A stretch of DNA of 64,000 nucleotides, from contig NC_089435.1 in NCBI RefSeq assembly GCF_026210795.1, forward strand, positions 5,270,001-5,334,000. Direction: 5' to 3'. A model generated the notes under the pieces. The model was not told the DNA's origin. It ran no database searches and was given only the letters and a program-made list of their open reading frames with translations. Origin of the DNA: Rhizophagus irregularis (lineage: Eukaryota; Glomeromycota; Glomeromycetes; Glomerales; Glomeraceae). The position numbers and the translations under genes are program-made. Below are positions 476-48,200 of the stretch, piece after piece. Numbering within the stretch: position 1 is the stretch's first letter; every line of letters begins with the position of its first letter.

Positions 476-2476
476 TTAATATTGCCTATCATGCCATATC
501 GGGTTTCTGATTATTTCCTGATATTTGACCAATACGTTATTACCCGATATTTCATCATTTGACCAGTGATTCTTTTTTTGATCAATTCCATAAAATCCAA
601 GTTCAGTTTTTGAATTGGATTTCCAATACAAAATTAATTTGCACATGGATTCTAGTTTATCCACATTAAGATTTAAGCGACGTTTATGAAATAGCCATCC
701 TAAAGTCGAAAATCCACGTTCGCAAGTTGCTGAGTTAGGACATATTGCAAATAGATAACTTGCAATTCTTGGCAGGACATCTGGTTCTGGTTCGGTATTA
801 ATATATTTCCACCAATTCACGGGATTATCTTTAGCAAAACCGATATCTAGGTCAAATGGCTCTTGCTCATTAATATATTTCTGTATTTGATCACATAAAG
901 TTTCAGCTTCGTAACGGTCGAAACCTAAATTTTTCCCGATTGAAGCTGCACATTTGATAATTCTCATGAGGGCGCATTTTTTAAGTGGCGCGTTTCTAAA
1001 TCTGGGATCCATAAAAAAACAAGTAATATACTTATCATCATCGAATTCATCAAATCTTTCATTTATTACTTTGATACAATGACTTCGGAATGCAGGATTT
1101 AATGATTTGGGTAACTTTTTTAATGTAGCTGCAAGTCTTGCCAAGCTCAGGAAACAATCTGCAAGTGTAGCTCTTCTCGATTCTAATGAAAGTACCGCTT
1201 TTCTTAGAGGATCCAGAACAAACCCAAGAACTCGTAAATTTGAAAAAAAATTTCTCGATTGAATAATCGGTTTTATTTTATCATTTGTTAGCACTTTATC
1301 GTGATCGCTGGCCATTTCTTCTAGTGCTGATTCCAAATTTATTACTGAATTTACGGATTCACTAGCAGTAGTCCAGCGTGTCTTGCAATATAATTTTAAT
1401 CCTCCTCCACTAATTCCTTTTTCTTTAATTATTTGAGCAAGTTTTGCATTAGCCTGATGAGAACTTCTAAAAAAGGTTGTCAAAATATTAACACGTTTTA
1501 ATAAACGTTCCCCAAACTTCTCCTTGACGATGTCGCATGCAATTAAATTGATAGAATGTGCAACGCATCGCACATTCTCAATCTTTGGATGATTCTCATG
1601 TATAATTTTTCGTGCATTACGAACATTGGCCGCATTATCGGAAACTACAGCACATATTCGATCTTCTCCAATACCTTCTATAACCTTTTCAATTACCGTA
1701 ACTAGATATTCTGCAGTGTGCGAATTTTCAGACAAATCAGAAAGTTGATAAAGATATTCTTTACGCGACGGAGTCATTACAATGAAGTTCCAAATTGAAC
1801 GATGTGTACCAGACGTCCAACCATCAAAGGCTAAATTATAAATTAATATTATATAGTAAGTAAGATTAAATAAAAATGACGTATGATAGCCTATTTAATT
1901 TAACAAACCTAACGTTAAATTCGTTTCCTTTTCAAGCTCAGAATTAACTTTGAAGTTCACTTGAGCTAATTCACGTTCAAGTAGTTGATTTACTAATACT
2001 TCCCTTGTTGGTGTATTGTACCCGGCATTAAGCTCTTTTATAAAATTGATGAAAAAGGGATGTTCCACTACTCTAAACGCAATTCCGCACGCAATAAAAA
2101 ATTTAACTAATGCACGATTAATTCGTGTACATCTTTGTTCGTTAAGCTCTGTTGAATCACGGTAATCATCCATGTTACTTTGACCTTCAGAGTATTTTCT
2201 TTTTTTGGATGACTTGGACTTATCTTGCCGTTCCATTACTTTAGTCATATACCTTCTAACAACTGCTGCTGGCGCATCTGGACAATGGTTTGAAAGATGC
2301 TCTTCAAGCTTTCAAACTTCACCGCGTGACCACGTATTCTTACAGTACTTGCAGGAGGCGGCAAATTTGCCAGAACCAACAGCTTCTCCTTTATTAATAT
2401 CTTCCCAAATGCTATTAGGTGGCCGACCTCCTCTATTTTTCATTTTAATGGGTGAATCTTCTATGTGATCAGTCAT
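476..2476 (-). pseudogene. hAT-family transposase with BED zinc finger, one in-frame stop
   Basis: Two exons on the minus strand: 2476-1909 and 1830-476, joined by a 78-bp intron with GTTTGT donor and TTTAG acceptor; the joined frame is 641 codons including stop. Residues 35-70 form a BED-type finger (CKYC then H-x3-HC). The middle has AFDGWTSG, VSDNAANV, AHSINLIACD and RWTTASESV, typical of hAT transposases. The C terminus carries the hAT dimerisation block (SYLFAICPNSATCERGFSTL then RRLNLNVDKLESMCKL). The only break is TGA at 2314-2312, codon 55, in the finger between GEV and KLEEHL. The catalytic half is uninterrupted, so this is a young copy. Its product would cut and paste DNA flanked by 8-bp duplications. 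A decayed relative lies at 20780-22700. Confidence 0.85.
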
Positions 2477-22700: not shown

Positions 22701-22782
22701 CCTAAAAATTGGATTCCTGATATTTAAACGATTAGTCACTAATATGTAACACTGAATCAATCTTACACATATCGGGTACCGA

Positions 22783-24016
22783 TGTAAACGGCCGAATATC
22801 AAGCACGAAAAGAAGATAAAATTCAACCGCCAAATGTAATTATTAAGTATTAAGAACGAACAAATTAATCGTGGATTGGCGTAGATGGATAAATAATTAG
22901 CCGAAAAGGATAAACATTTAAGAAGAGTAATGATCTGCATGACGTAATATTTATTGAATGATTGACAAAGAACCAATAGGATAAATAGAGTCGATCATTT
23001 GCGGCTTAGCGATCTTTACAAGAACGATAAGAAAGAATAATTATAAGCCACGAAAGATAGATTATAAGCAAAATATATAAAGTGGATTAAAAGAACATAT
23101 AAAATAATGTCGGAAAGATTAAAGAACACAAAATAATATAAAAGATAATATGAAAAGATGGCATAAAGATGGAATATAAAAGATAACATATTAAAAAGAA
23201 CATATATAAAAGATAACACAGCCACAAAAGATGAATTATATCTTTACGACATAATATTTGAAAGATTATTTTAAAGAGAAGATAGCACAGCCATAAAAGA
23301 TGGGTTATAAATTATTTCTTTACGATGTAATATTCAGATAATAGAAAAGATAATATATAAAATAATATATAAGATAGCATATTAAAAGATAGCGTATTTA
23401 AAATATAGATAGTATATTAGAAAGATAGTTCAAAGATAATATGTAAAGAACATGAAAGATAGTATATAGATAGAATAGAAAGTAGCATAAAAATTGTATA
23501 TATAGAGAACGGAATTCAAAGTAATTCCATAGTTCGCATCCACAGAACTCAATAAAATATAAGTTTCGTTTAATTATTTGTTAATGAAGTTTAATATTAA
23601 TTAAAGGTAATAGGTTCGCCCTAAACTTTAATTAATGTTTGATTAATTAATTTTAATTAATGAAAATTTAAGAAGAATTAAATATATGTTTTGAAAAGTG
23701 ATAATTCGTAGCGAGAGCTATCGAAGTTTGAAATTAAAGGTAAAAGTGGATATAATTTGAGGAAAGAGACGTATATTTTATTTTATATCGTTTAATGTTT
23801 TGTATTACTAACACTATTTATTTTATGAACCAAGAATGTTGTTGTACGTTGTTCGCTGATGTTGTTGTTTGTTAATTATGTTTTGATCACGTGCTTGTTC
23901 GTTTAATTGTTCGTTCGTTCGTTTGTTTGTTCGTTCATTCGTTCGTTCGACCATGAGAATGCCCGTTCGATGTGGCAACCTTGTAAATTGATGACAGGGG
24001 GAATTGGGGGATCTCA
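22783..24016 (+). repeat. 5' LTR
   Basis: 1,234 bp, TGTAAACGGCCG...GGGGGATCTCA. Contains AAAGAT/AAGATA-rich repeats (23040-23470) and a TTCG/TTTG microsatellite (23903-23951). A candidate TATA box and a polyadenylation motif lie inside. Followed by TA then TGGTGCATGCTCGCAAG (24019-24035), a plausible primer-binding site because it begins TGG; the matching tRNA is not identified. Confidence 0.95.
23497..23556 (+). promoter_or_regulatory. LTR promoter TATA and AATAAA signal
   Basis: GTATATATAGAGAAC at 23496-23510 is the best TATA box in the LTR. AATAAA at 23551-23556 follows about 50 bp later and would be the polyadenylation signal in the 3' copy (32738 onward). This implies a short R region. 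Inferred from motif and spacing only. Confidence 0.45.
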
Positions 24017-25587
24017 TATGGTGCATGCTCGCAAGAAAGGAAATGATCATCATCACATGATTATTATTAATATGAAAATTTAATTTCGTTGGTAAGTCAC
24101 TGATAGGTATTATTAATCAATATTTTATTTTAGAATTTATTTTTAGATTTCAGGTTTTGACGAGTTCAAAAGGAACCAATAAATCAATAAGGATTTAACG
24201 AGTTAAAAACTTGAAAAGGTGAAAGATTGGAGTTTGAAGTTGTGCAAGTAATCACTTAATCGATAGAAAGCACAAGAATGTTTCTTTCGGGAATAAAGTA
24301 CCTGAGAAATTTCATAAGGAGATGTAGAAGTTAAAGATAAATTTTGGAATAAAGATTAATAATGGGAGAACACCAATGTATTATCCGGGGTTCATCTGTG
24401 TGGTATGGGTTACCTCTGAGTTTGGATTTTGGATAAATGCTCAAGATTGGAAAATTTTTATTCTTCGACATTAAAGATTATAACGTATGGGTTACGTCAA
24501 ATCTGGATACCCAGCTCAATAAATGCGCAAATTGCTTTGGGGACGGAAAATGAAGATTGTAAAGACACCTACTATCAAGAAACATTGAATGGATAAAATA
24601 GGACAAACCTGAAAACTGTCGTGCTTTTATTCCAATGTGGGGTATCTCCAGCGGGTAAAAGATAGAGATAAGCTCAGTATAGGTCAGGAAGATAAGTTGG
24701 TTAGACGAGTTTTGAGGATAGCAGATGACTTTTGAAACTGGATTTTGGAAGGTTAGATTCACCCGTTGAGAAACGAGTCGGCCAACGAAGAAGGAAAAAA
24801 CGGACACGTTGTATTGTTACAGGTCCTAGGCTACATTTCAGATGAGGGTTCCTGGTGTAGTGTCCTAGTTCACGCTCTCACTACAATGTTCCGTTAAAAG
24901 AAGAAAAAATAGAAGGATATTTACACATTAACGAGCCGTATAATGAACATTACGTGCAGTATTTAATAATAGAGTAAAATCCGAAAAGAAGGACATTTAT
25001 TTAAAAGAAGAACATTTATTTGAAAAGAAGGATATTTATTTGAAAAGAACGACATTTTGTGTGTTATAGATTAATTTATATAATATAGAATATATAGTAA
25101 GAAGGATTTATATGGACGATAAGAAAGATTGGAAATTCGCAAACCTTAAAAGTTACGAAAATTTTGAAGTTTGTGATATGTGAAATTATGGATCTTGGTG
25201 ACAAAAAGATGTGACAAAAAGAGGTGATAAGTGAAACTATGAATCACGGTGACGAAAAGATGTGACATGTGAAATTATGGAAATCGGTGATAAAAGATAA
25301 ATTTTAGGGCGCAGTAAAAACCTCCGCAGCCTGAGGAGATTGTGGACTTAGAAAAATTTTTGAAATTTTATGGCGCAGTAAAAATTAATAGTAAAATATA
25401 GCGTAGTAAATATATAGAACTGAAAGATGGAATTTAAAGATTGAGAGAAGTAATCTATTTGAAGATAAAAAGAATGTTTAGAAGATCAAAAATAGAAACG
25501 ATAAGAGTGAAATATATATATATATAGAGAGAGGAGTCCGATTGAAATTCTGGATGGATATTCATGGCAATTTAACTAAAGCATACA
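24017..25587 (+). other. Retrotransposon leader, no ORF
   Basis: 1,571 bp between the 5' LTR and gag with stops in all frames. Features: the putative primer-binding site at 24019; four copies of a GAAAAGAAGGACATTTATTT unit at 24988-25059; a repeated GTGACAAAAAGATGTGAC/GTGAAATTATGGA unit at 25170-25290; and GGCGCAGTAAAAA repeated at 25308-25400. It could hold the packaging signal. Minus-strand ORFs here are unsupported. Confidence 0.5.
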
Positions 25588-28500
25588 ATGGAATGGTACC
25601 ATCAATGGGAAAGCGAATATAGAACACATAAAGAAGAACACGAATTAGGAACGGAAGAATTGGACGAATGTTTAAATTGTGAATTATGTTATCCAATAGT
25701 AAATGAACCAATAGTATTCAAGAAATTTTGGGACGCATTATTTAAATTTGAAGATGCAATAATAATATATAATGACGTAACAATTAAGGGAGTATTAGAT
25801 TTATTAAGTATGAACAATTCAGAAAGAGAGGATACAATACATAAAGGAAAATGCAGAGATATAATGGATAGAATAACAGAATCAATAAGATATAGAATAC
25901 AACCAAAGATGAAAGAAAAAGGATTACGAACAATTATATTAGTAATTGTAAGAGATTGTATTGAAAGAAATCTGGAGAATGAAGTATTTGATAGATTAAT
26001 TGGAAATCCTGAATTAATAGAACACAAATATATTTTGGAAGATTGGGATGTTGAAAGAAGGTTTGAAAAATTTTGGCAATGGTATAGAATCACATCGAAA
26101 GAAATTGGACCATTACGAGTAAAGATAGGAGCAATAAAGACATTTAGGGAATTACTATATGAAGAAGAAGGAATAGCTATGAATGAAGAGAAAGTAAAGG
26201 AACTAATGTCCGATGTAGAATATGAGAACATACATATAGAAAATGTTCATGAATATCATAGGAATATGGTACAAAAGATAATAAGAATATTTATAGATAC
26301 TAGGGGTTTTACAAAAGAACCAGAAGATTCAGAAAGTGAAGATAGTCCAGCAAGTTACGAGTTGGAAAATGATTCTGAGGAAGAATTAGAGATAATAATA
26401 GGAGACAAATCATGGAAATTTAGTGAATTAAGAAGAAGGTCAAATGTTATGGATAAAGATCAACTGAGGTACATTTGGAAGATAGGAATAAAGTTGATGA
26501 TAGAAATGGATATATTGGTAACGAGAATATTTATGGACAAAATTCAAGAGGTAGAGGAATTGGATGAAAGAGAAAAAGAATTGAGGATAAAAGAATGGTT
26601 AGAAAAAGAAACAATAATGTGTGAAAAATGTGGTAATAGAAGGTTCGAAATGGACGAAGCGGATAGCGAGTGCGGGGAATGTGTTAAAGAAGCGCAGAAG
26701 AATGAACAAGATGAGCTAATAGAATTAAGAAACAACTTAGAAAAATTGGGATATGAAATAGATGTGTCAGAAATTCAAAGAATGAAGAGTTTTGGGGTAA
26801 ATAATCGAATAATGGTAACTAAAGAATTTGTGGAAGAATATATGGAAGTGATAGATTTGGAAGATAAAGAATTAAGAAAAGAAATCCATAAGTGGTTAAA
26901 CAAGAATACAACTTGGTGCGAAAGATGTGAAATAAGATGGATGAATGATATGTTTAGATTAGGATGGATGGATGATATGTCTAGAGTAAGAGGAATGGTA
27001 TGCAAAGATTGTGAAGAAGAAAATATCGATGAAATTGATGATCGGGTAAAAAGATTACAGAAGATTTTTGAAGATATTGGAACAATAATAACTGAAGAAG
27101 AATTGTTGAGATTAACTAGTATGGGATATACAGATGGAGAAATTTTAGATAAAGAATTCATTGAAATCTTTCAAGAAAATAAAAATAAGTCGGAAAAAGA
27201 ATTGAAGAAAAAGTTAGATAAGTTGTTGAAAGGACAAACAGGAACAATAGATAGTGAAGAAAGTGGCGAAAGAAGCGATAATGAAGAATCAGAAGAAGAT
27301 AATACAGATGATTCAGAAAAGATTGGAGAAATATTAAGTCCGGATGAAAGATGGGATGAAGATATTGAAAATTTTAACGAAGAAGAATTTGAAGATGAAG
27401 TTGAAAATGTTATAAATAGAGGGGATAGCGACTTAAGTCAAAACTCAGATACGAATAGTTCATTAAATATTAAAAATTCTGACAACGAAAGTGAATTATC
27501 TGATTACAATTTACAAGATTTATTTCAAGAGAATATATTGAAGATGGCAACTGAGGGTCAAATAAAAAGAGTGATAGAAAATGCTTTAGGTTTTCCAGCA
27601 AATACTTTGAACGCAGCAGTAGGAGCAGGAGGAAGTTTGATAGAAAGGATCGAAAATGCAGGGAACGAAGCAGGAGGAACAATTAGTATACCACTCTTTT
27701 ATGGAAGAGAAGATGAAGATGTTACTGATTGGGTTAGACAATTCGAGGTAGCATTTGCAGCAGTCGGAAAAGCAGCGGGGGCTAATGGCGTAAGACAAGC
27801 GGTATACGCAGCAGCACATTTAAGAGGGGCAGCAGCACAATGGTATAATGAAATGAAAGAAGTAAATGCGGGAAACTTAGTGAATTGGGCAGATGCAGAT
27901 AATGATAATGATTTAAAGCATAGAATAAAAAGAAGATTTACCAGAGAGGATGTTAGAAGAAAGAAAATGCTAGAATTAAGAAAAACCCGACAAGAAACAA
28001 GTGAAAGTGTTGAAGAATATACAAGAAGATTTAGACAAATATTAAGAATAGCAACTAGAGGACATGCCTTAGCAGACGAATATCAAGTAGATTTTTATAT
28101 TGAAGGATTAGAACCAACAATAGGGTATCAAGTTAGAAGACAGAATCCAGCGAACTTAAATGGGGCGATAGAAATAGCAGTAAGGGAAGAAGGTGCGAAA
28201 GACGAATTTTTAAGAAAAGCAATAGGAACGTCAATTAGTACGAAGATAGACATCGGAAAAGACGATAATAGACAAAATATGTTCGCAAAACCATTGAACG
28301 AAAATTATGAGGACGAATTAGCTGAAATGTTTAAAGAAAAGGCAAAAATCAGTAAATTAGAAGCACAAATAGCAAGTATGGAGAGAAGATTAAATAACGA
28401 TAATAGGAATAGGTATCGATCAAATATGGGAAGGAGATTAAATAATGGTAATAGGAATAGTTATCAACCAAATCAGATTAGGGTACCAACATGTTACGGA

Positions 28501-29181
28501 TGTAATAGAGTGGGGCATTATAAGAATAATTGTCCTGAAGGAAGGAATGCAAGATTAAATATGATAGACGAATATGATGATCAAGAAGAATACTATTATG
28601 ATGAATATGGATACGAGGAACCACAATACGGTGAAATGTATTATACACAAGGCTATTACGATGATTATGAAGATAGAGAATTAAATTATCATAGTGAATT
28701 ATACGCAAAAGATGACGCAGTAAAAGGAAGAAGACAATCAAGAAGAACGAGTCCAATAGTGGGATATAAAAACAATGATGAAGGAAGAAATTTACAAGAA
28801 GAATTAAGAGAAGCAGGAAATAGAATGGATGATAGAGAAATACCAACTGGTACAACAGCACCAAATTATATACCTGAACGAACTGAACAAAATGGGGATA
28901 GACCAATGGGACCAAAAGGAATGAGGTGGAGTAATAAAAGGCAAGCTTATTACGACCCAACAGAAGGACTAAGAAAATGGAGAGAAGCAGGAGGACCAAC
29001 AAAGCCCAGAGAATATGGACCAAGACTAACTGACGGAATACCACCTTATGACATTGTGGAAGATGTGAAAAATTGTAGAGCGAATATAACATATGGACAA
29101 TTAGTAAACGGGAATCCTAAGTACCATAAACAATTAAGAGAAGGAACATATAGACCAAGAAGTATAAACGAGAAAAATTGA
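25588..29181 (+). CDS. gag: Gag polyprotein with a 650-residue N-terminal extension
   Basis: 1,197 aa. Residues 700-870 are a retrotransposon gag (capsid-type) domain: IPLFYGREDEDVTDWVRQFE, AAHLRGAAAQWY, RRFTRED, VEEYTRRFRQILR, DFYIEGLEP. A CCHC zinc knuckle follows at 969-982 (CYGCNRVGHYKNNC). A Tyr/Glu/Asp-rich linker runs 993-1040, and the ANITYGQLVNGNPKYHKQLR motif at 1165-1184 normally leads into protease. Residues 1-650 match no Gag region I know. They start with a C28-x2-C31-x2-C34 cluster and hold three related segments of about 90 residues (about 290-380, 385-480, 485-550); the first two carry CxxC pairs (C345/C348 with C362/C365, and C444/C447 with C472/C475). A very acidic linker follows (555-650). 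Ends at TGA with CTA after it, and the protease ORF continues in the same frame. ATG 25588 is the first Met of the frame. Confidence 0.88.
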   Translation: MEWYHQWESEYRTHKEEHELGTEELDECLNCELCYPIVNEPIVFKKFWDALFKFEDAIIIYNDVTIKGVLDLLSMNNSEREDTIHKGKCRDIMDRITESIRYRIQPKMKEKGLRTIILVIVRDCIERNLENEVFDRLIGNPELIEHKYILEDWDVERRFEKFWQWYRITSKEIGPLRVKIGAIKTFRELLYEEEGIAMNEEKVKELMSDVEYENIHIENVHEYHRNMVQKIIRIFIDTRGFTKEPEDSESEDSPASYELENDSEEELEIIIGDKSWKFSELRRRSNVMDKDQLRYIWKIGIKLMIEMDILVTRIFMDKIQEVEELDEREKELRIKEWLEKETIMCEKCGNRRFEMDEADSECGECVKEAQKNEQDELIELRNNLEKLGYEIDVSEIQRMKSFGVNNRIMVTKEFVEEYMEVIDLEDKELRKEIHKWLNKNTTWCERCEIRWMNDMFRLGWMDDMSRVRGMVCKDCEEENIDEIDDRVKRLQKIFEDIGTIITEEELLRLTSMGYTDGEILDKEFIEIFQENKNKSEKELKKKLDKLLKGQTGTIDSEESGERSDNEESEEDNTDDSEKIGEILSPDERWDEDIENFNEEEFEDEVENVINRGDSDLSQNSDTNSSLNIKNSDNESELSDYNLQDLFQENILKMATEGQIKRVIENALGFPANTLNAAVGAGGSLIERIENAGNEAGGTISIPLFYGREDEDVTDWVRQFEVAFAAVGKAAGANGVRQAVYAAAHLRGAAAQWYNEMKEVNAGNLVNWADADNDNDLKHRIKRRFTREDVRRKKMLELRKTRQETSESVEEYTRRFRQILRIATRGHALADEYQVDFYIEGLEPTIGYQVRRQNPANLNGAIEIAVREEGAKDEFLRKAIGTSISTKIDIGKDDNRQNMFAKPLNENYEDELAEMFKEKAKISKLEAQIASMERRLNNDNRNRYRSNMGRRLNNGNRNSYQPNQIRVPTCYGCNRVGHYKNNCPEGRNARLNMIDEYDDQEEYYYDEYGYEEPQYGEMYYTQGYYDDYEDRELNYHSELYAKDDAVKGRRQSRRTSPIVGYKNNDEGRNLQEELREAGNRMDDREIPTGTTAPNYIPERTEQNGDRPMGPKGMRWSNKRQAYYDPTEGLRKWREAGGPTKPREYGPRLTDGIPPYDIVEDVKNCRANITYGQLVNGNPKYHKQLREGTYRPRSINEKN

Positions 29182-29694
29182 CTACACTCGGTGGGAACTA
29201 TGAAAGATGAAGAGAAAAGAACTACAGCGATGAGAACGGAATTAGAAGTTGAAGATCAATTAGTGAGTGTAATAATAGATACCGGAGCAGCAGTAAGCGT
29301 GATAACAGATAAATTAAGAAGAAGATTGAATATACCTATATTTGGAAAAAGTAAATTTAGATGTACAATAGCAAATGGGCAAAAGATAGCAGCATTAGGA
29401 AAGGCAAATATAACTTTAAGATACAAAGATGAATTAGAGATATTAAGAGACGTTGAAGTAATCGATTCAGAAGAGGAGGATCTAATTTTGGGAAATGATA
29501 TATGGAAGCTGTATAATGCAAAAATAAATTTCGAAGATCATACCTTAAGAATAGAAGAACGGGGAGAAATAATAACGATCCCAGTAGGATATGAAAGAGA
29601 AGCAATATATGAAAGCGAAGAGAGCGAGGACGATGAAGAATATGAAAGTAACGATGAGGGAGAGGTATTCAAAATGCACCAGAATTTTAAATAG
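29182..29694 (+). CDS. pro: Retropepsin-like aspartic protease (same frame as gag)
   Basis: Lies in the gag frame directly after the gag TGA (29179-29181). The first ATG in this segment is at 29200; without a good separate start, expression by read-through is more likely. The active-site motif is IIDTGAAVSVI (Asp about 13 codons after the second Met block) and the second conserved block is LILGNDIW, as in Ty3/Gypsy proteases. The last 30 residues are acidic (SEESEDDEEYESNDEGE). Ends TAG 29692-29694. It would process Gag and Gag-Pol polyproteins in particles. About 170 aa. Confidence 0.85.
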   Translation, partial: LHSVGTMKDEEKRTTAMRTELEVEDQLVSVIIDTGAAVSVITDKLRRRLNIPIFGKSKFRCTIANGQKIAALGKANITLRYKDELEILRDVEVIDSEEEDLILGNDIWKLYNAKINFEDHTLRIEERGEIITIPVGYEREAIYESEESEDDEEYESNDEGEVFKMHQNFK

Positions 29695-29729
29695 AGAGTC
29701 TTGGCTCTGAAGAGAGAGAGACGGAAAAG

Positions 29730-31817
29730 ATGCTTAAACCTAGTGAAAAATTTATGCAGAAATTAAGTATAGGGAAAGTGGAAGAACCAATTTGGGAAAA
29801 TATGGTAAAATTATTATTAAAATACCAAGATATTTTGGAATATGACAAAGAAATAGAAGGAAGAACAAAAGCGGCGCAACATGAGATAAAAATAAAAGAT
29901 GGGGTAGAACCAATAAAGCAAAGAAGATACAAAGAAACAGATGAGAAGGCAAAATTTATAAGTGAAGAAGTAGATAAATTATTAAGACAAGGAAGGATAA
30001 GAAAATCAAAGAGTCCGTGGAGTTCACCGGTTACATTAGCAGGAAAGAAAACAGGAAAATATAGATTTTGTATTGATTACAGAAAGTTAAACAAGATAAC
30101 TATAATGGATAGTTTTCCTTTACCAAGGATGGATGAATTGTTAGACAAATATAGAAAAGCAAAATGGTTTTCAAGTATAGATTTAGCGGCGGGATTTAAT
30201 CAAGTAGAAATGAAAGAAGAAGACAAAGAAAAAACAGCATTTGTATGTTCAAAGGGATTATTTGAATATAATGTAATGCCGTTCGGTTTAACGAACGCAC
30301 CAGCAACATTTCAGAGATTAATGGATGAAATATTAGAAGAATACATAAACGATTTTGTGGTAGTATATATCGATGATATTATGATATATTCAGAAAATTT
30401 AAAAGACCATATGGAACATGTGGAAAAAGTATTAAAGAAGCTACAGGAGAATAATTTGATAATAAAATTAAAGAAATGTAGATTTTTGGAAAGAAATATA
30501 GAATTTTTAGGACATATAGTAGGAAATGATGGATTAAGGCCAGACGATAAAAAGATAGAAAAGATAAAAGAAATGAAGGCACCAACAACAGTGAAAGAAG
30601 TTAGATCATTTTTAGGACTTTGCTCATATTACAGAAAATTTGTGAAGAATTTTTCAAAGATAGCAAGACCAATAAGTGATTTGAGAAAGAAGGGAATACC
30701 TTTTATTTGGGGAAGAGAACAACAAGAAGCGTTTGAAAAATTGAAAGAAAAGTTAATACAATATCCAATATTGCGACATCCAGATTGGAAGAAAGAATTT
30801 TTATTAATAACAGATGCATCAGGAAAAGGATTAGGCGCAGTATTGAGTCAAAAAGATGAAAAAGGAAAAGAAGTAGTAATAGCATATGCAAGTAGAAGTT
30901 TATTACCAGCGGAAGAAAATTATCCGATAACAGAGTTGGAATGTTTAGGAATAGTTTGGGGAATCCAACATTTTCATAAATATTTAATCGATAGAAAATT
31001 TAAAGTAATAACAGATCACAGTGCATTAAAGGGATTAATGAATGCGAAGATACCAAAAGGAAGAAGAGCAAGATGGGTAATGGAATTACAGCAATATAAT
31101 TTTGAAGTAGTACACAGGTCGGGAAAAGAAAACACGAACGCTGACGCATTAAGTAGATTATTAAAGATAGTGGAGGAACAACCAGAAATAGTAATAATCG
31201 ACGGAGTAGACGGATTGGGAAAAACAAGTATAGTACAAAATTTAATTGGAGAATGGGAAAAACAAGGATTAAAAGTAAGATTCAATACTTATAAAAGAAG
31301 AAGAAAAGATAAAGATGAATTTCACGAATCAAAGATGGATACAGAATGGAAATTCAGAAAAGAAGTAGTGGAACAAATAAATAGAAGAATGTTAGAATAT
31401 GATGAAGATACAGATATAATAATTTTAGACAAATCACCATATTGTGAATATTATTATCAAAAGACGAAAAGTTTTGACAGAGGGTTAATTACTCCACATG
31501 GAAATCATGAGATGGAAAAAGAAATATTTAGATTGAAAGAAACAATAGATAAATCAATAGTGATATTTTTAGAAAAAGATGGCAATGTATGTTGGGAAAA
31601 TTACATTGGAAGAGAAACAAAGAAAACGGAAAAATCATCATATCCAACATTAAAAAAGGATGAATATTTGGACATGGTTAAAATGTTTGAAGAAAATCAG
31701 AGCGTATACAAATATACCAAAAGATACAGTCGAGTAAAAGTTAAAAATGACAATAGTAGTTGGAGAAAAGTATTTAAAGAGGTGGAAAAATGGAGAATGG
31801 TTAAAGAAATTTTATGA
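29730..31817 (+). CDS. pol: Reverse transcriptase-RNase H-thymidylate kinase-like fusion, no integrase
   Basis: 695 aa. RT: FCIDYRKLNKITI (113-125), SSIDLAAGFNQVEM (D151), MPFGLTNAPATFQRLMD, and the catalytic YIDDIMIYS (213-221). The connection ends around SFLGLCSYYRKFV. RNase H: TDASGKGLGAVL (D362), ELECLGIVW (E402/E404), ITDHSAL (D429), NTNADALSRLL (D472). From 485 the usual integrase is absent. Instead VIIDGVDGLGKTS (487-500) is a Walker A of the thymidylate/deoxynucleotide kinase style. IIILDKSPYCEYYYQ (563-577) matches the DR-x-S...AYQ position, and FDRGLITPHGN and VIFLEKDGN follow. The rest resembles the LID and C-terminal helices of thymidylate kinases. The frame is -1 relative to protease with almost no overlap; ATG 29730 is 35 nt past the protease stop. 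The family of the last domain is inferred from motifs only. Confidence 0.9.
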   Translation: MLKPSEKFMQKLSIGKVEEPIWENMVKLLLKYQDILEYDKEIEGRTKAAQHEIKIKDGVEPIKQRRYKETDEKAKFISEEVDKLLRQGRIRKSKSPWSSPVTLAGKKTGKYRFCIDYRKLNKITIMDSFPLPRMDELLDKYRKAKWFSSIDLAAGFNQVEMKEEDKEKTAFVCSKGLFEYNVMPFGLTNAPATFQRLMDEILEEYINDFVVVYIDDIMIYSENLKDHMEHVEKVLKKLQENNLIIKLKKCRFLERNIEFLGHIVGNDGLRPDDKKIEKIKEMKAPTTVKEVRSFLGLCSYYRKFVKNFSKIARPISDLRKKGIPFIWGREQQEAFEKLKEKLIQYPILRHPDWKKEFLLITDASGKGLGAVLSQKDEKGKEVVIAYASRSLLPAEENYPITELECLGIVWGIQHFHKYLIDRKFKVITDHSALKGLMNAKIPKGRRARWVMELQQYNFEVVHRSGKENTNADALSRLLKIVEEQPEIVIIDGVDGLGKTSIVQNLIGEWEKQGLKVRFNTYKRRRKDKDEFHESKMDTEWKFRKEVVEQINRRMLEYDEDTDIIILDKSPYCEYYYQKTKSFDRGLITPHGNHEMEKEIFRLKETIDKSIVIFLEKDGNVCWENYIGRETKKTEKSSYPTLKKDEYLDMVKMFEENQSVYKYTKRYSRVKVKNDNSSWRKVFKEVEKWRMVKEIL

Positions 31818-31969
31818 TCGAGGGGGATTTACACCAAGAATAGTAATTAAAGGAAAAGAGGTATTCGATAAGACCCGAGTTCGATTCAATTAGAATTATT
31901 ATGAACGAGACCCGAGTTCGATTCTTTTAAAGTTATTTGTGAGGTCACAAATAGCGAAGAGGGGGATAA
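31818..31969 (+). other. 3' internal region with purine tract
   Basis: GACCCGAGTTCGATTC occurs twice (31871-31886 and 31909-31924), each like a pol III B-box (GTTCGATTC). The sequence GCGAAGAGGGGGA at 31954-31966 is the polypurine tract, three bases before the TG of the 3' LTR. Confidence 0.65.
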
Positions 31970-33203
31970 TGTAAACGGCCGAATATCAAGCACGAAAAGA
32001 AGATAAAATTCAACCGCCAAATGTAATTATTAAGTATTAAGAACGAACAAATTAATCGTGGATTGGCGTAGATGGATAAATAATTAGCCGAAAAGGATAA
32101 ACATTTAAGAAGAGTAATGATCTGCATGACGTAATATTTATTGAATGATTGACAAAGAACCAATAGGATAAATAGAGTCGATCATTTGCGGCTTAGCGAT
32201 CTTTACAAGAACGATAAGAAAGAATAATTATAAGCCACGAAAGATAGATTATAAGCAAAATATATAAAGTGGATTAAAAGAACATATAAAATAATGTCGG
32301 AAAGATTAAAGAACACAAAATAATATAAAAGATAATATGAAAAGATGGCATAAAGATGGAATATAAAAGATAACATATTAAAAAGAACATATATAAAAGA
32401 TAACACAGCCACAAAAGATGAATTATATCTTTACGACATAATATTTGAAAGATTATTTTAAAGAGAAGATAGCACAGCCATAAAAGATGGGTTATAAATT
32501 ATTTCTTTACGATGTAATATTCGGATAATAGAAAAGATAATATATAAAATAATATATAAGATAGCATATTAAAAGATAGCGTATTTAAAATATAGATAGT
32601 ATATTAGAAAGATAGTTCAAAGATAATATGTAAAGAACATGAAAGATAGTATATAGATAGAATAGAAAGTAGCATAAAAATTGTATATATAGAGAACGGA
32701 ATTCAAAGTAATTCCATAGTTCGCATCCACAGAACTCAATAAAATATAAGTTTCGTTTAATTATTTGTTAATGAAGTTTAATATTAATTAAAGGTAATAG
32801 GTTCGCCCTAAACTTTAATTAATGTTTGATTAATTAATTTTAATTAATGAAAATTTAAGAAGAATTAAATATATGTTTTGAAAAGTGATAATTCGTAGCG
32901 AGAGCTATCGAAGTTTGAAATTAAAGGTAAAAGTGGATATAATTTGAGGAAAGAGACGTATATTTTATTTTATATCGTTTAATGTTTTGTATTACTAACA
33001 CTATTTATTTTATGAACCAAGAATGTTGTTGTACGTTGTTCGCTGATGTTGTTGTTTGTTAATTATGTTTTGATCACGTGCTTGTTCGTTTAATTGTTCG
33101 TTTGTTCGTTTGTTTGTTCGTTCATTCGTTCGTTCGACCATGAGAATGCCCGTTCGATGTGGCAACCTTGTAAATTGATGACAGGGGGAATTGGGGGATC
33201 TCA
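31970..33203 (+). repeat. 3' LTR
   Basis: 1,234 bp, same length as the 5' LTR. Substitutions noticed: TTCAGATAA (23334) against TTCGGATAA here (about 32521), and CGTTCG against CGTTTG in the microsatellite. Ends GGGGGATCTCA followed by CCGAT. Confidence 0.95.
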
Positions 33204-33906
33204 CCGATATGCAAAATATTTATTTATTGTATTTGTATTATATAATCCAAAGAGGTATATTAAAATTATTACTAAAAAAGTATTTTAATATTAAAGATAA
33301 TCGTTTATTCATATAAAACCCCTTATTTTCAATTTTTTTTTATTTTTTCTAATATCACGAATAACTGACAAAAATATTAAAAATATACATACCGTATTTT
33401 GTGGGCTACAGTACCCCCCCTATACACAGTATTTTACACAAATTTTTTTTTGGATTTTTTAAATACCCAGATTATACATGTAGCTGAAACCTCTATGAAG
33501 CTAAACAGGGTTTCAGACTTTCAGTAATTTAATTATAATAAATTATAATAAATTATTAAAAACTATCCAAAAATCCATCTAAAACTCCAAAGACTTTATA
33601 TTATAGTTTCGGCTGGATGTAGAGATTAATTTTTATCATTTTTTAACTTAATTTTGATTTAAAGATGTGGCTAAAAATCACGTGAAAAAGTTTTGGCTAC
33701 AAGTATAACCCAGATATTTCGCACAGAGACATTCGATTTTTAACCTCTAAAATTTATAAAATATCTGAGGTACAACACTAGAAAAAAAAATATATACACT
33801 GTATAATATCCGGGTATTTATTATCAACTTTATTTATTATATATGATATTACAATATGCAATACATTGTTAAAATCCTTTATATTATTTCCTAAATTCTC
33901 TCAATA
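33204..33906. other. Spacer with a TA-flanked CCGTATTTTG element end
   Basis: CCGTATTTTGTGGGCTACAGTACCCC from 33392, preceded by TA, is the same end as the inverse of the right border of the MITE at 57404-57649. A weaker inverse (AATATCCGGGTA, about 33808-33819) may be the other end. Inside are repeated TCTGAAACC/GTTTCAG bits. No ORF. Confidence 0.45.
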
Positions 33907-35324: not shown

Positions 35325-36030
35325 AACGAAACGTCAAAAAACGTTTCGAAAATAATTTTTTTCATATTGTTTTAATCGGAACGTTGGCTAACATTCTGAT
35401 TTTTTTTTTTATTTCATTTTTTAGCGAAACGTTAAAAAATGTTTCGAAATACATTTTTATTTCATATTTTTTTAATCGGAACGTTGGCTAACGTTCCGAT
35501 TTTTTTTGTTTTTTCATTCTTTAACAAAACGTTTTTTAACGTTTCGAAGCATTTCTTTTTTTAACTTTTTTAATCGGAACGTTAGCTAACGTTCCGATTT
35601 TTTATTTTATTTCATTTTTTTATTTACAAAACGTTTTTTAACGTTTTGAAACTTTTTTTTTAATTTTTTTTTAATCAGAACGTTAGCTAACGTTCCAATT
35701 TTTTTTATATTTTATTTTTTTACGAAACATTTTTTAACGTTTCATAATATGATTTTTTTTTCATATTTTTTTAATCGGAACGTTAGCTAACGTTCTGATT
35801 TTTTTATATTTTATTTTTTTACAAAACGTTTTTTAATGTTTTGTAATAATATTTTTTTTTTTCACATTTTTTTAATCGGAACGTTAGCTAACGTTCCAAT
35901 TTTTTTTATATTTTATTTTTTTACGAAACGTTTTTTAACGTTTCGTAATAATATTTTTTTTCACATTTTTTTAATCGGAACGTTAGCTATAACGTTCTGA
36001 TTTTTTTTCATTTCATTTTTTAACAAAACG
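35325..36030. repeat. Palindromic satellite, about 7 units of about 100 bp
   Basis: Each unit has two palindromes: CGAAACGTTNNNNAACGTTTCG-like and CGGAACGTTAGCTAACGTTCCG-like, separated by T-rich runs of about 30-35 bp. The second palindrome occurs at about 35379, 35479, 35576, 35678, 35776, 35875 and 35970. The same palindrome types, with CTAAC at the centre, occur as the branch-site palindrome of the intron-like arrays, but only the first units here retain a TTTTTAG. Confidence 0.85.
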
Positions 36031-42217: not shown

Positions 42218-45200
42218 ATGATGAATGATAATATAGATTATGATACCTTTGTGCGAAATCCCCCCAACCCCGTTGATTTTAGTGATATTTTTAATGATCT
42301 TTTATCTGATACTTTATTTTCTTCCTCTTCTTCTACTTCCCCCATTCCCAATTCTTTTAACATTTCTTCCTTTAATGTTAATGGTCTTAAAACTCCTGGT
42401 CAAGGTTCCTTTAAAATGGACCAAATTTCTTCTTTCTTTTTACAAAATCATATTTCCTTTGGCAGTATTGTTGATACTCATCTATCGCCTAAACAAATGA
42501 AATTTTTATCTAAACGAGTTTGTGATTATACCATATGGGCCGATCCTTGGAATCTAATTTTTTTACACAAAAATAATTTTATTAAAGCAAATATAAATTA
42601 TCATTTATATAAGAATAATAAATTTATACTAGATAATGCAAAAAAAACTAATTAATTATATAATTTTTAATTTTTTTTTAATATAAGATATCATTAAAAT
42701 TTAAAAGATCAAATATAACTCTCATGACAAAATCATTGATAATTCTTCGTAGAAATAAGCTATACAAATAAATTTACATTCATTTGAAAGAGAAAATCGA
42801 GATCTATCTAATGAATCTAAAATCAAGTGAATTGAATCACTAGTTGTTCAGTAATCACGTTCAGTATATTTATTGAATTTTATCTAAATTTGATCATTAA
42901 TTACTTCACATGTAGTGATTCAATTTGAATGATCTTTGCTCCCTAAGGTGATGCCAACTTTTATCTTTAAAATAAATTTAAAATAATTCGTTTAATATAT
43001 GTAGATGTTTAGGAATCATCAATTATATTATTAATATAAAATTTTATAAGTTTGATAAAATCTGATATAAAAAAATTTATTAAATACCTGTAGATGCAAG
43101 CTACACGAATGAAATTATATTCATTTGAAAGAGAAAATTGAGGTCTATCTAATAAGCCTAAAATCGAATGAATTGAATCACTGGATTGTGAATAATTACG
43201 TCTAATATATTTATTTTTAATTTTTAAATTTGATTTGACTTTGATCGTTAATTACGCCTCATCCAGTGATCCAATTTTCCTGATCTTTGATTCTTACGAT
43301 AGAGCAAATTCTCAGCTTTCAAATGAATGTAAAATGATGACGTTAGCATATCTCCAGGAATAATAATGCACGATTTTGTCACCTGCATAAAGTCCGATCT
43401 GAAAATTTTATTTCTTACCAAAAAATGCTTTCATAAGAGAATCCCAAATTCTTTTACTTTATTTAAAAGATTTTATTTGCCATTTAAGGATTTTAGTAGA
43501 ATAAATCTAATAAAATAATTTTAAAAGATAAAAAACAAATATATAATTAGTTATTTTGAAAAAAAAAGAATATCTTATTATTCATTTTACAACTATTTTA
43601 CATCATAATTATTTTTTATTTGCATGTATTTTATATAAAGAAAAAACAATAAATTAAAGCTAAAAATTATGAAAAAATATGTCTTATCTATGTATATAAA
43701 ATATTAAGTTTTTTCTTTTACTTACCACTTAAAAATAACTGCTATATTTGCTTATAAACTTTTTTGTCATATTTAATAAAAGTGAATAGAAAAATGATGG
43801 AAAAGTGATGGGCAGTGATGGGGAAAAAGAAGTGGTTATTACCGTTATTTTTGAATATTGATTAAAAAAATTTTTTTTATTTTTTATTAAATCTGAGTTA
43901 CGTAAATATGTAACACATATTTAATTTAGATTTGTGTAATGTTAATCTTACTAAAATATTAAATTTTTATAAAAATCTTAATTTAGACTAATTCCAAAAA
44001 TCGGCACATATGCTTCTTTTCATTCTGATTTGGATTCCACCAAACACGGCCGGTCTTCTGGTGGTGTTTCTTTATTCATACATAACTCGTTAGCCACTCA
44101 TGTTCAATTTTATTAATCCCATTCCTCCTGAATTCTTTCTGTAGACTTGTTTTTTAAAGGCAATGTTAAATTGCGTATATTTGTCGTCTATATCCCACCT
44201 ACAAATGATCTAGTTCTTCGTTACGAAGTCATTGATCAATTAATTTCTCTAATTTCCCAAACTTCTTCACAAAACTTTCACCATGCTATTTGCGGTGATT
44301 TCAATATGAATTTAGAGAAATATTACTCTATTTTTTTGCATCAACCTCAGGTTGCTGCTAAACGAATTCACAAATTGTTTCACTATTTGCTTTCTCATAA
44401 TTATGAGGACTGCATTCCCTTTAATTTATCCGGTACCTTAGGTACTTATCATCATTTGGATACTATTACCCGTATTGACTTTGTTTGGTCTTGTCCACTT
44501 CTTCGCCAATATTTGTTAACAGCTTCTATTTTTGATGCTCATGATTTACACATTTCTGACCATAACCTTATTATTACATATTTTGATGTTTCATTATTAT
44601 CAGATGCTATTAAATCTGCACGAGCTCGTCAAATTGGTCGTAATACTCGACATGTTTTTAAATATGATTCTATTTCTACTGAACAGTGGACTGTTTTTGC
44701 TGATGATTTGGATAAATTATGTCCAATTGATCCACTTATTTTTGACGCTTGGCCTCTCAATCAGAAGTGTGAATATCTCCATTCTAGGATTATCAAAGCT
44801 GCTAATTCCGCCTTACCTTCAATTACTGTGGGCAATACTTATGTTCCAAAAAAGCCTAAAGACTTGGAAAGTTTATGCCAATCTTATAGATTTTTGTCTA
44901 AAGTGGCTAAGACTATCCGTTTTCTTCACAAGACCCCTACATTATATTCTATTCATCATGAAACCAAGTGGTCTTCATATTATATACGTCTTAATAATAT
45001 TTTATCCTTTTATAAACAAACCTTTGTTACGCCTATTATTTTTCCTCTCTTTCTTCGAGATGCAAGAATTGATGATTTTGCCAATTTACTTCAAATTCTA
45101 GAAAATATGACTTTGCTTTTGCAAAGTCTTCTTTTGCTTAAAGAAAAAGAATTTCAAGCCTTTTCTATCCAGGCTAAAATTGATGCTCGGAATGATAACT

Positions 45201-48200
45201 TCACCAATGATATTTCCACTTTTATTGAATCTGCTTTGTCACAAACCAGACAACAAATTGTTCTTGATCGTGTTTTCATTGATCATCCAACACACCCTAC
45301 TTTATTAACTTCTCCAGATGCTATTGATCAAGAAGTTATTGAACATTTTCAAAACTTTGTTCCAATTACTTCTACTCTTCCATCTTCCATACAGGAATTA
45401 CCTGAACGATGGTCTAATGCTTATGCACCATTTGCTGATGTTTCTCCAGCTATTTTTGATTCACTAATGGATCCTCCTACCCTTGATGAATGGTCCTTAA
45501 CAATTTCCTTCATGCCTAATGATAAAGCCCCAGGACCTTCCATAATCTCGTATGAGATGTTAAAACACCTAGGTCCTTCTGCTTCTGCTCTGCTTTTCAA
45601 CTTGATTTGCGCCTGTTTATCAGACACAAATATCCCTGACTTATGGAGACAAGCTACTGTCTTTCCTATTCCCAAACCGCATGAATGGAAGTGCTAACTC
45701 AAAAATACTCGTCCTATTACTTTATTGGAGGTGATTTGCAAGGCTTTGGTTAAGCTCTTTTACAATCGTCTCGCTCCTTTGCTCGCCTCCCACCATGTTC
45801 TTCAAGGTGGTAATTTCGCAGGTTTACCTGGGGGTTCCTACCGTGATCCTATTATTACTCTGGAATCCATCATCCATGACTCAGTAGTCACTAAACAACC
45901 TTTATGGATCCTCTCCCAAGACATTTCAAAAGCATTTGATTCTGTAGATTTATCTATGTTGCGTTTTGCTCTTTAACGTTTACGTTTGCCTCAAAATGCA
46001 ATTCAATTCTTACTCTCTTTATTTATGTCACGTTCTAACCGTGTCATTACTGCACATGGCCCTACTCCACCATATAGAGTTAGAATTGGAATAGACCAAG
46101 GTGAAGTTATCTCTCCGCTTTTATGGGTTATTTATTTAGACCTTCTACTTACAACTCTTAAACATGAGAAGAAAGACCCTTATTGTTTGGTCTCTCCATT
46201 GGCTCCCTATACTGTTTTATCAAATTCTTGCTCTCCGGACGTTTTAGAAATTAATAATTTGGTGTTCATGGATGATTCTACTTTAATCTCTTCTTCTAAA
46301 GAAGGAATGGAACATATGTTGTCTATTACTGAAGAATTTTATTGTTTAAACAACACCTCAGCCAACCATAACAAATATGTTTTAGCCACTAATGCAATTG
46401 CTGCTTCTCGAGATTTGTCTCCTATAGCCTTTAATTTTATCGCTCAACTCCACGCCCAACATTATTGTTACTCCTATCCCTATGTCCTCATCTTTCCGGT
46501 TTTTAGGAGTTTGGTTTAATATTAACGGCTCTAGAAACTTTATCCGACAACAACTTAAACGAGAATGTAATTCTTTCTCTGCAATTCTTCGCTCTGCGAA
46601 ATTGACTGTTCAACAAGTGGTGTATCTTTATAATACTGTCTTGATCCCGAAATTGGATTTTTGAATGCAAGTCACACATTTATCTGAGGCTGAATGTTCC
46701 ACTATTACTTCTTCAGTTCGTGCTCTAGTTAAACACAAGGCCAAATTATCACGCTCTGTTCCTAATGTGGTGTTATATTTAACACATGCTTTGGGTTTGA
46801 TCAATTTATTTTCATTTCAACAACAAAGTCATTTTACTAATTTATTTTTGTTAGCAAATTCTTCTTCTGTTTTTATGAAATCATTATTCAATTATAGGTT
46901 GCGATTTATTCAATTTTATTGTTTAATTCCTATTTCTCCTTTGATGGTTTTGGATTGGACTTGTTGGTCTTCTCTTATAATTTTTAAACAAGATTATATC
47001 GCTAATACTCTAGCTTCATTACTCTCAACTCCCTTTCATTTGTCACACGCTAATCTATCATCTGTGCCTGATTTAACCTACCCCAATGGCCATACTCCCA
47101 TTTATCAATGTCTTTCTTTGGATGTATTTAAAGCCAATTTAACAAGACTTCGAAAACGCGGCCTTTTTTACTTTTCGCAACTTTTGACACCTCAAGGAAC
47201 ACATTTGCTCTCTTGGTCTGTCATATATGTTAATTCTGTTCAAAAGCGTGATAATGCCCGTCTTTCCAATTGGTACAAAAATCTCTCCACTAATGTCACG
47301 ATTCCAGATAAACCTGGTTTGTTAAAAGACCAATTTATGGCTGAACAACGACCTGTGAGCCAGATTGCAAAAGAACTTGCTCCTTGCATTCCTCCTTCTG
47401 GTTATAAGAAGAATTGGATTGTCACGATGAATGATGATGGCTTGGAAAACAGATCCAGATCCAACCCAAACGCTTCACATGTACTATTGTACATTGGATT
47501 TCAGACTGCTTATCTCATTCGAGCGATTTGATTATTCTACAACCTTGTCCTGGCTGCAATTTAAATATAAATAAATCTTCCTATTCAAAGAAATCAGTTG
47601 CTACTGGTTCTGTTTCCTGCTCTTATTCAGCCTCTCTTCGTCAGTCATGGATCTTACCTATGAAGAAATCATCTATTTTGATTCACACATCCAGCTTGAT
47701 TGCTACGGTGTCGTGAGTGGAAATCATGGATTTTGTTACTTCTTTTTGTAATCCTTCAGTTCGCTTGATGCCTGCTGCTGATCTTTCTCATACTTCCTTT
47801 AATACTGTTGACAGGACTTTGCCTACTCCACATTTGCTTACGGCTGGCGATGTTGCTGCTTCATCATCGGTCGTGTTTTCTCCAGACTCTTAATATATCT
47901 TTTACACTGATGGTTCTCTTATCAATTTAAGAACGTGTGATATTTCTATAGGATGGGGCTGGGTTCAAATTGTCAAGGATTCTGGCTTTCTTAATTCTAT
48001 TGCCACTTACAGTATAAGCGGGTATTATTCGTGATTGGCCTTCCTTTTCACGAGCCGAAGCTGCTGCTATTTATGCAGCTTTATCAGCCTCTCCTGCCAA
48101 CTCTGTAGTTCATATTTATACAGACTCACAGTCTTCCATCGAGGGTTTGAAACATTGTTTCTTATCTGATTATTCAGATACTCGTCTTTATTATAAGACT

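Follow-up and report, generated by a model that had tools for sequence, protein, structure and literature searches.

A nucleotide-kinase-like domain between RNase H and integrase in Ty3/Gypsy elements of Rhizophagus irregularis and other Glomeromycotina

Fungal Ty3/Gypsy retrotransposons that carry a dUTPase are described, in excerpts of PMC2864245, from Postia (PosPlaTy3), Phanerochaete and Tuber, and the same excerpts state that the position of the dUTPase in retroelements varies and includes the C-terminus of Pol. The bdelloid rotifer retroelements Juno and Vesta also carry captured enzymes, for which the excerpted part of PMC5408684 reports no significant departure from neutrality. Two-thirds of the transposable elements (TEs) of the arbuscular mycorrhizal fungus R. 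irregularis are still unclassified (PMC11075540, excerpt), and in the excerpted text of two papers on its TEs (PMC11075540 and PMC8647823) kinases appear just as expanded or signalling gene families. Here we describe a long terminal repeat (LTR) element in a 64,000 nt stretch of this genome (C7:5270001-5334000, hereafter the window), whose pol open reading frame (ORF) runs from reverse transcriptase (RT) and RNase H into a domain resembling nucleotide kinases, a new domain type within a known kind of element. Its relatives were sought in 146.7 Mb of the genome (32 contigs).

The element spans window positions 22783-33203 on the forward strand (Table 1), and its two LTRs align with 1,233 matches and 2 mismatches over 1,235 bases. 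It has two LTRs, gag, protease and RT-RNase H, as do Ty3/Gypsy elements; its RT-RNase H was compared with relatives from the R. irregularis genome and with database matches. The kinase domain begins straight after the sequence NADALSRL that ends RNase H. The initial annotation of this DNA had described a recent LTR element in which such a domain, uninterrupted, is fused to RT-RNase H, and had taken the domain to be under selection; the fusion, the open frame and the youth of the element are all borne out, as is the selection (see below). At least 151 kinase matches are present in the genome, and the RNase H-kinase junction recurs in many copies. Among the best 150 matches, 130 are stop-free, in a ranking that favours intact ones, and the frame is open in all of the 30 loci whose kinases come nearest to that of the window (94–100% identical, the window copy counted among them), a figure biased by the ranking on kinase similarity. 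Proteins of R. irregularis in the databases match the window domain at up to 97%, and among 55, 38 and 99 overlapping protein matches those that carry an organism label come from R. irregularis, R. clarus and Glomus cerebriforme only, in a search that requires shared 5-residue words and may therefore miss distant relatives. The number of matches and the several species rule out a one-off capture.

A kinase standing in place of the integrase, as the initial annotation had proposed, is ruled out by sibling copies in which an integrase adjoins the kinase. Integrase lies downstream of the kinase in 23 of the 30 closest loci, in many of them with its own ATG soon after the kinase stop; an ATG-started ORF of at least 300 aa follows the kinase in 20 of the 30, so some integrase frames are broken. 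A family C integrase query gave 451 first-look candidates, of which 113 were scored as integrase matches; at least 98 of these have a kinase 109–673 nt upstream on the same strand. Both counts are lower bounds, given this scoring and a kinase set confined to the best 150 matches. Most of the integrase is gone in seven of the 30 loci, at three breakpoints: one is common to the window copy (L001), L002, L015 and L016, the second to L007 and L020, and the third belongs to L023. The distance from kinase to LTR is 173, 300 and 297 nt, respectively, against the usual 1,377–1,379 nt, giving net deletions of about 1,205, 1,078 and 1,081 nt, and only the last 39 integrase residues are retained in the window copy. 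The start of the LTR could be located in 26 of the 30 loci, and its first 127–140 nt are 88–100% identical to those of the window copy in 25 of them, L030 being the exception. Since the LTR starts are so alike, integrase help in trans is plausible; the window copy, which derives from a deletion, would have to obtain the enzyme from related copies whose LTRs resemble its own. The four copies with the window's breakpoint have kinases that are 94–98% identical (pairwise synonymous divergence, dS, 0.10–0.27), while the 194 nt after the kinase are 97–100% identical; this is a weak hint that recombination carried the deleted 3' part from one backbone to another.

The other ARRANGEMENTS beside family A, that of the window copy, are B (L032), C (L033 and L034), D (L031) and E (L035). 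In families B and C, RT-RNase H is followed by a linker of about 75–80 residues, the kinase, a stop and a separate integrase ORF, and in family D the RT-RNase H ORF is followed by a single 600-aa ORF encoding kinase plus integrase (H2C2, 1.6e-17; rve, 9.3e-11). RNase H-kinase-integrase and kinase-integrase arrangements are also found in the R. clarus proteins P0083, P0106 and P0112. The position of the kinase is constant, between RNase H and integrase, either C-terminal on the RT-RNase H protein or N-terminal on the integrase ORF. In RT-RNase H, L032 shares 88% identity with L034 and 69% with the window copy, whereas its kinase shares 87% identity with that of the window copy, and its linker is similar to those of L033 and L034 as far as the P-loop; with RT-RNase H near one family and kinase near another, the kinase has been exchanged in place between element families. 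Family E shares with the kinase families the order of protease, RT-RNase H and integrase and an identical gag/protease stop context, and its RT-RNase H is 57–64% identical to theirs, but its integrase ORF follows about 200 nt past the end of RNase H and there is no kinase. This absence was read in one copy (L035, which has a stop inside RNase H), and is deduced for the other 13 from the lack of a kinase among the matches listed. For 15 of the 113 scored integrase matches, no listed kinase lies upstream; 14 of these are E-type (386–408-aa ORF, 63–64% identity), and the remaining one (C25, 83%) resembles family B. In an unrooted RT-RNase H tree, it appears likely that the kinase was gained after the split from family E, rather than lost in E.

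Ratios of nonsynonymous to synonymous substitution (dN/dS) were calculated by NG86 from codon-aligned sequences, with up to 80 sampled pairs per set. In family A, the kinase gave 0.062 (30 loci, bootstrap 0.033–0.082) and the integrase 0.072 (20 loci, bootstrap 0.047–0.088); in family C, the values were 0.087 for the kinase (nine loci), 0.111 for the integrase (eight) and 0.033 for RNase H (6 of 9 copies). The dS of the two kinase sets was 0.18 and 0.28, respectively. The kinase is under purifying selection, and is constrained about as strongly as the integrase and less than RT-RNase H. Two other values were set aside: 0.59 for family A RNase H, probably an artefact of frameshifted copies in the alignment and replaced by the value from 22 stop-free copies (0.029), and 0.265 for the family C upstream region (7 of 9), which was distorted by unaligned indels and was replaced by the codon-aligned 0.033.

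The initial annotation had called the domain thymidylate-kinase-like. Its predicted structure gave a strong match, the best 50 structural matches shown being all nucleoside or nucleotide kinases, so that the nucleotide-kinase type stands; thymidylate specifically does not, since structures of deoxynucleoside kinases (dNKs) and thymidylate kinases (TMPKs) tie as matches and the dTMP-kinase profile cut-off is missed by far (see below). By its predicted fold and its P-loop, the domain belongs to the dNK/TMPK superfamily. Sequence comparison connects it to a dNK (E 2.0e-7), and a profile alignment with the dNK gene of this genome (probability 96, 108 columns) places DKSPY opposite DRTPL. That gene (L065:4485-5495, C28:1223987-1224994) is one open frame and strongly A-rich, with 47% A, and decayed pieces lie about 40 kb away at C28:1181428-1185579. 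Across the 38 aligned sequences, N42, K45, R48, F65, R66, N74, D90, K91, Y94, Y99, Q100, R151 and E152 are invariant. In one pairwise profile alignment, N42 faces the Glu that follows strand 2 in dNKs. This Glu acts as general base in dNKs, and nucleoside monophosphate kinases need no such residue, so N42 in its place tilts the assignment, weakly, to a monophosphate kinase rather than a nucleoside kinase. Against PF02223, the window domain scored 16.5 bits, below the curated cut-off of 27, which was passed by five of nine relatives that had partly been picked for a listed PF02223 match. The TIGR00041 cut-off was passed by none of the ten proteins scored. PF01712 is absent from the profile matches of the window domain listed to E 1; P0038 scored 16.1 bits against the cut-off of 27, and 3 of 16 relatives matched at E ≤0.01 (best 3e-4). 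Sequence searches of the PDB gave P-loop-level matches only, the best being FtsY-type GTPases and one adenylate kinase, and no whole-domain match to a dNK or TMPK.

Several sources for the domain were considered. No relative was confirmed among the 38 and 20 pattern matches that profile scans gave in viral and prokaryotic contigs, respectively, and a prokaryotic or catalogued viral source was rejected as far as close donors are concerned. A giant-virus origin was likewise set aside; the word kinase is absent from the main text of PMC10640383. A 393-aa protein, P0087, has a NUDIX domain fused to a kinase that is 41–50% identical to the transposon kinases. Derivation from P0087 itself was rejected because no match to its NUDIX part was found in this genome, in a search that had no positive control; P0087 could be a cousin, cellular or viral, of the kinase donor.

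On balance, we favour the view that a Ty3/Gypsy lineage of glomeromycotinan fungi carries a resident nucleotide kinase and that, by analogy with the precedent of retroelement-borne dUTPases, this would be an active deoxynucleoside monophosphate (dNMP) kinase, with dTMP as the first guess at its substrate, supplying RT with precursors of deoxynucleoside triphosphates (dNTPs). Gag-Pol would carry the kinase into the virus-like particle alongside RT, where it would convert dNMP (dTMP first) to the diphosphate (dNDP), and the cellular nucleoside diphosphate kinase would finish the dNTP. It would complement the dUTPase known in other fungal Ty3/Gypsy elements, both enzymes being on the dTTP route. 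A more specific and more tentative proposal is that a dTMP (dNMP) kinase covalently joined to RT lets the element produce the dTTP precursor itself, right where reverse transcription takes place, which would suit an A-rich RNA in a fungus with many nuclei that are not dividing, and that the module predates the split between Rhizophagus and Glomus cerebriforme and has been swapped between families. The sense strand of the element ORFs is 45% A and 9% C, and minus-strand cDNA is consequently T-rich. This A-richness was rejected as an explanation for the kinase because the kinase-free family E equals it, and the composition is kept as context only.

A number of observations weigh against a dNMP kinase that serves the element. 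The Arg of the DR motif is Lys in all 38 aligned sequences, and against the dTMP-kinase equivalog TIGR00041, which has a cut-off of 83.25, the window domain reaches a score of 17. RT-RNase H of family A is under stronger constraint than the kinase (dN/dS 0.029, 22 of 30 loci stop-free), and the kinase of family D has a dN/dS of 0.171 at a dS of 0.02, where the copies are too alike to be informative. Upstream frames are broken in two of the four copies with the window's breakpoint (L015 and L016). Family E has a sense strand with 49% A and is multi-copy, with 14 integrase matches, so the kinase is dispensable in elements of this kind.

A nucleoside kinase, or some other small-molecule P-loop kinase (acting, for example, on dC, dA or a modified nucleotide), would feed reverse transcription in the same way and appears unlikely, given that residue 42, which faces the dNK Glu in one profile alignment, is N in all 38 rows and that the PF02223 cut-off is passed by several of the selected relatives, whereas PF01712 is seen only below its cut-off. 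Somewhat more doubtful is a domain that has kept fold and P-loop and is now non-catalytic, serving as an NTP-binding or nucleic-acid-handling module in packaging, integration or the assembly of RT with integrase. Such a role would fit the DK motif in place of DR, the basic KRRR conserved right after strand 2 (K45 and R48 in 38/38, R46 in 36/38, R47 in 35/38), and the adjoining integrase, to which the domain is fused in family D; however, the P-loop, DK and the lid residues R151-E152 are conserved as a set, and the 50 top structural matches shown all belong to nucleoside or nucleotide kinases. The kinase-free sister family (L035) is what might be expected if the domain were a passenger, a captured fragment carried neutrally by the element, but this is very improbable: it is contradicted by the dN/dS of both kinase sets at the dS values given above, and the kinase is found in several species and element families, with most of the best matches stop-free, though the ranking favours intact copies.

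The remaining parts of the element are listed in Table 1. The gag ORF has an N-terminal stretch of about 700 aa ahead of the capsid region (window 25576-27780), for which there is only a weak match to DUF7479 (E 0.15). The gag/protease junction TGACTACACTCGG (window 29179-29191) is the same in all four junctions printed, from families A, B, C and E (L032, L033 and L035 besides the window). UGA-CUA is a known stop-readthrough context, and since CTA comes directly after the gag stop in each of these junctions, the protease is probably made through readthrough of the gag stop. The protease ORF and the RT ORF are in different frames and have 4 nt in common (window 29683-29694), so that RT would need frameshifting or reinitiation; by eye, there is no clear slippery site at the overlap. 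Elsewhere in the window are a hAT-type transposase ORF (DUF659, Dimer_Tnp_hAT; 476-1894, reverse strand), a LINE-like (long interspersed nuclear element) endonuclease ORF (Exo_endo_phos_2; 44132-45697, forward strand) and a repeat of about 100 bp in six tandem copies (35354-35972).

Table 1. Features of the LTR element, in window positions.
Feature	Position	Strand	Details
Target site duplication CCGA, left	22779..22782		flanking sequence; 4 bp, weak on its own
5' LTR	22783..24016	+	1,234 bp, TG...CA; aligned pairwise to 3' LTR
Putative primer binding site TGGTGCATGCTCGC	24019..24032	+	read from sequence; 2 nt past 5' LTR
gag ORF	25576..29181	+	stop-to-stop 1,201 aa; Retrotrans_gag 1.1e-12 and Ty3_capsid 9.9e-10 within aa 737-872
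Aspartic protease ORF	29182..29694	+	gag-asp_proteas 6.7e-9; gag frame continued past TGA-CTA
pol ORF, RT-RNase H-kinase	29691..31817	+	708 aa
Reverse transcriptase domain	30045..30521	+	RVT_1, aa 119-277
RNase H domain	30708..31097	+	RT_RNaseH_2 aa 340-439; RT_RNaseH aa 365-469
Nucleotide-kinase-like domain	31161..31814	+	218 aa
P-loop GVDGLGKT	31203..31226	+	domain residues 15-22; K21 in 37/38 aligned sequences, one gap
DKSP motif	31428..31439	+	domain residues 90-93; sits where TMPK/dNK have the DR/ER motif
Integrase remnant, C-terminal 39 residues	31774..31890	+	tblastn 56% identity, E 3.7e-7; overlaps kinase end, other frame
Polypurine tract	31956..31969	+	read from sequence; directly abuts 3' LTR
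3' LTR	31970..33203	+	pairwise LTR alignment
Target site duplication CCGA, right	33204..33207		flanking sequence

The initial annotation knew of no Ty3/Gypsy element with a nucleoside-monophosphate-kinase domain, and no LTR element with a kinase was found in the open-licence literature searched, in which dUTPase alone was found among nucleotide-metabolism enzymes of LTR elements. If the favoured reading is true, the pol-resident kinase would be the second such enzyme besides dUTPase and would, like it, act on the route to dTTP. The proposal that retroelements in non-dividing cells are limited by their supply of dNTPs would then become directly testable, with the kinase-free sister family E as a useful natural control. 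The domain may also aid the classification of repeats in R. irregularis.

Compared with thymidylate kinases (PF02223, TIGR00041) and dNKs (PF01712), the window domain shares the predicted fold, the P-loop, a D-[KR]-[ST] motif and homology to the dNK gene, but it lies below the curated cut-offs, has DK for DR and an NTFKRRR-type loop after strand 2, and is transposon-borne. With the bdelloid rotifer elements Juno and Vesta, whose ORF3 encodes a DEDDy exonuclease or GDSL esterase, the kinase elements have in common captured enzyme ORFs shared across retroelement groups (excerpts of PMC5408684); they differ in the enzyme, in its fusion to pol or integrase rather than a separate ORF3, and in clear selection. 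The dUTPase-bearing Ty3/Gypsy elements and retroviruses resemble them in having a captured enzyme of deoxynucleotide metabolism within or beside pol (excerpts of PMC2864245), whereas the kinase elements carry a P-loop kinase, at one site between RNase H and integrase, in the Glomeromycotina.
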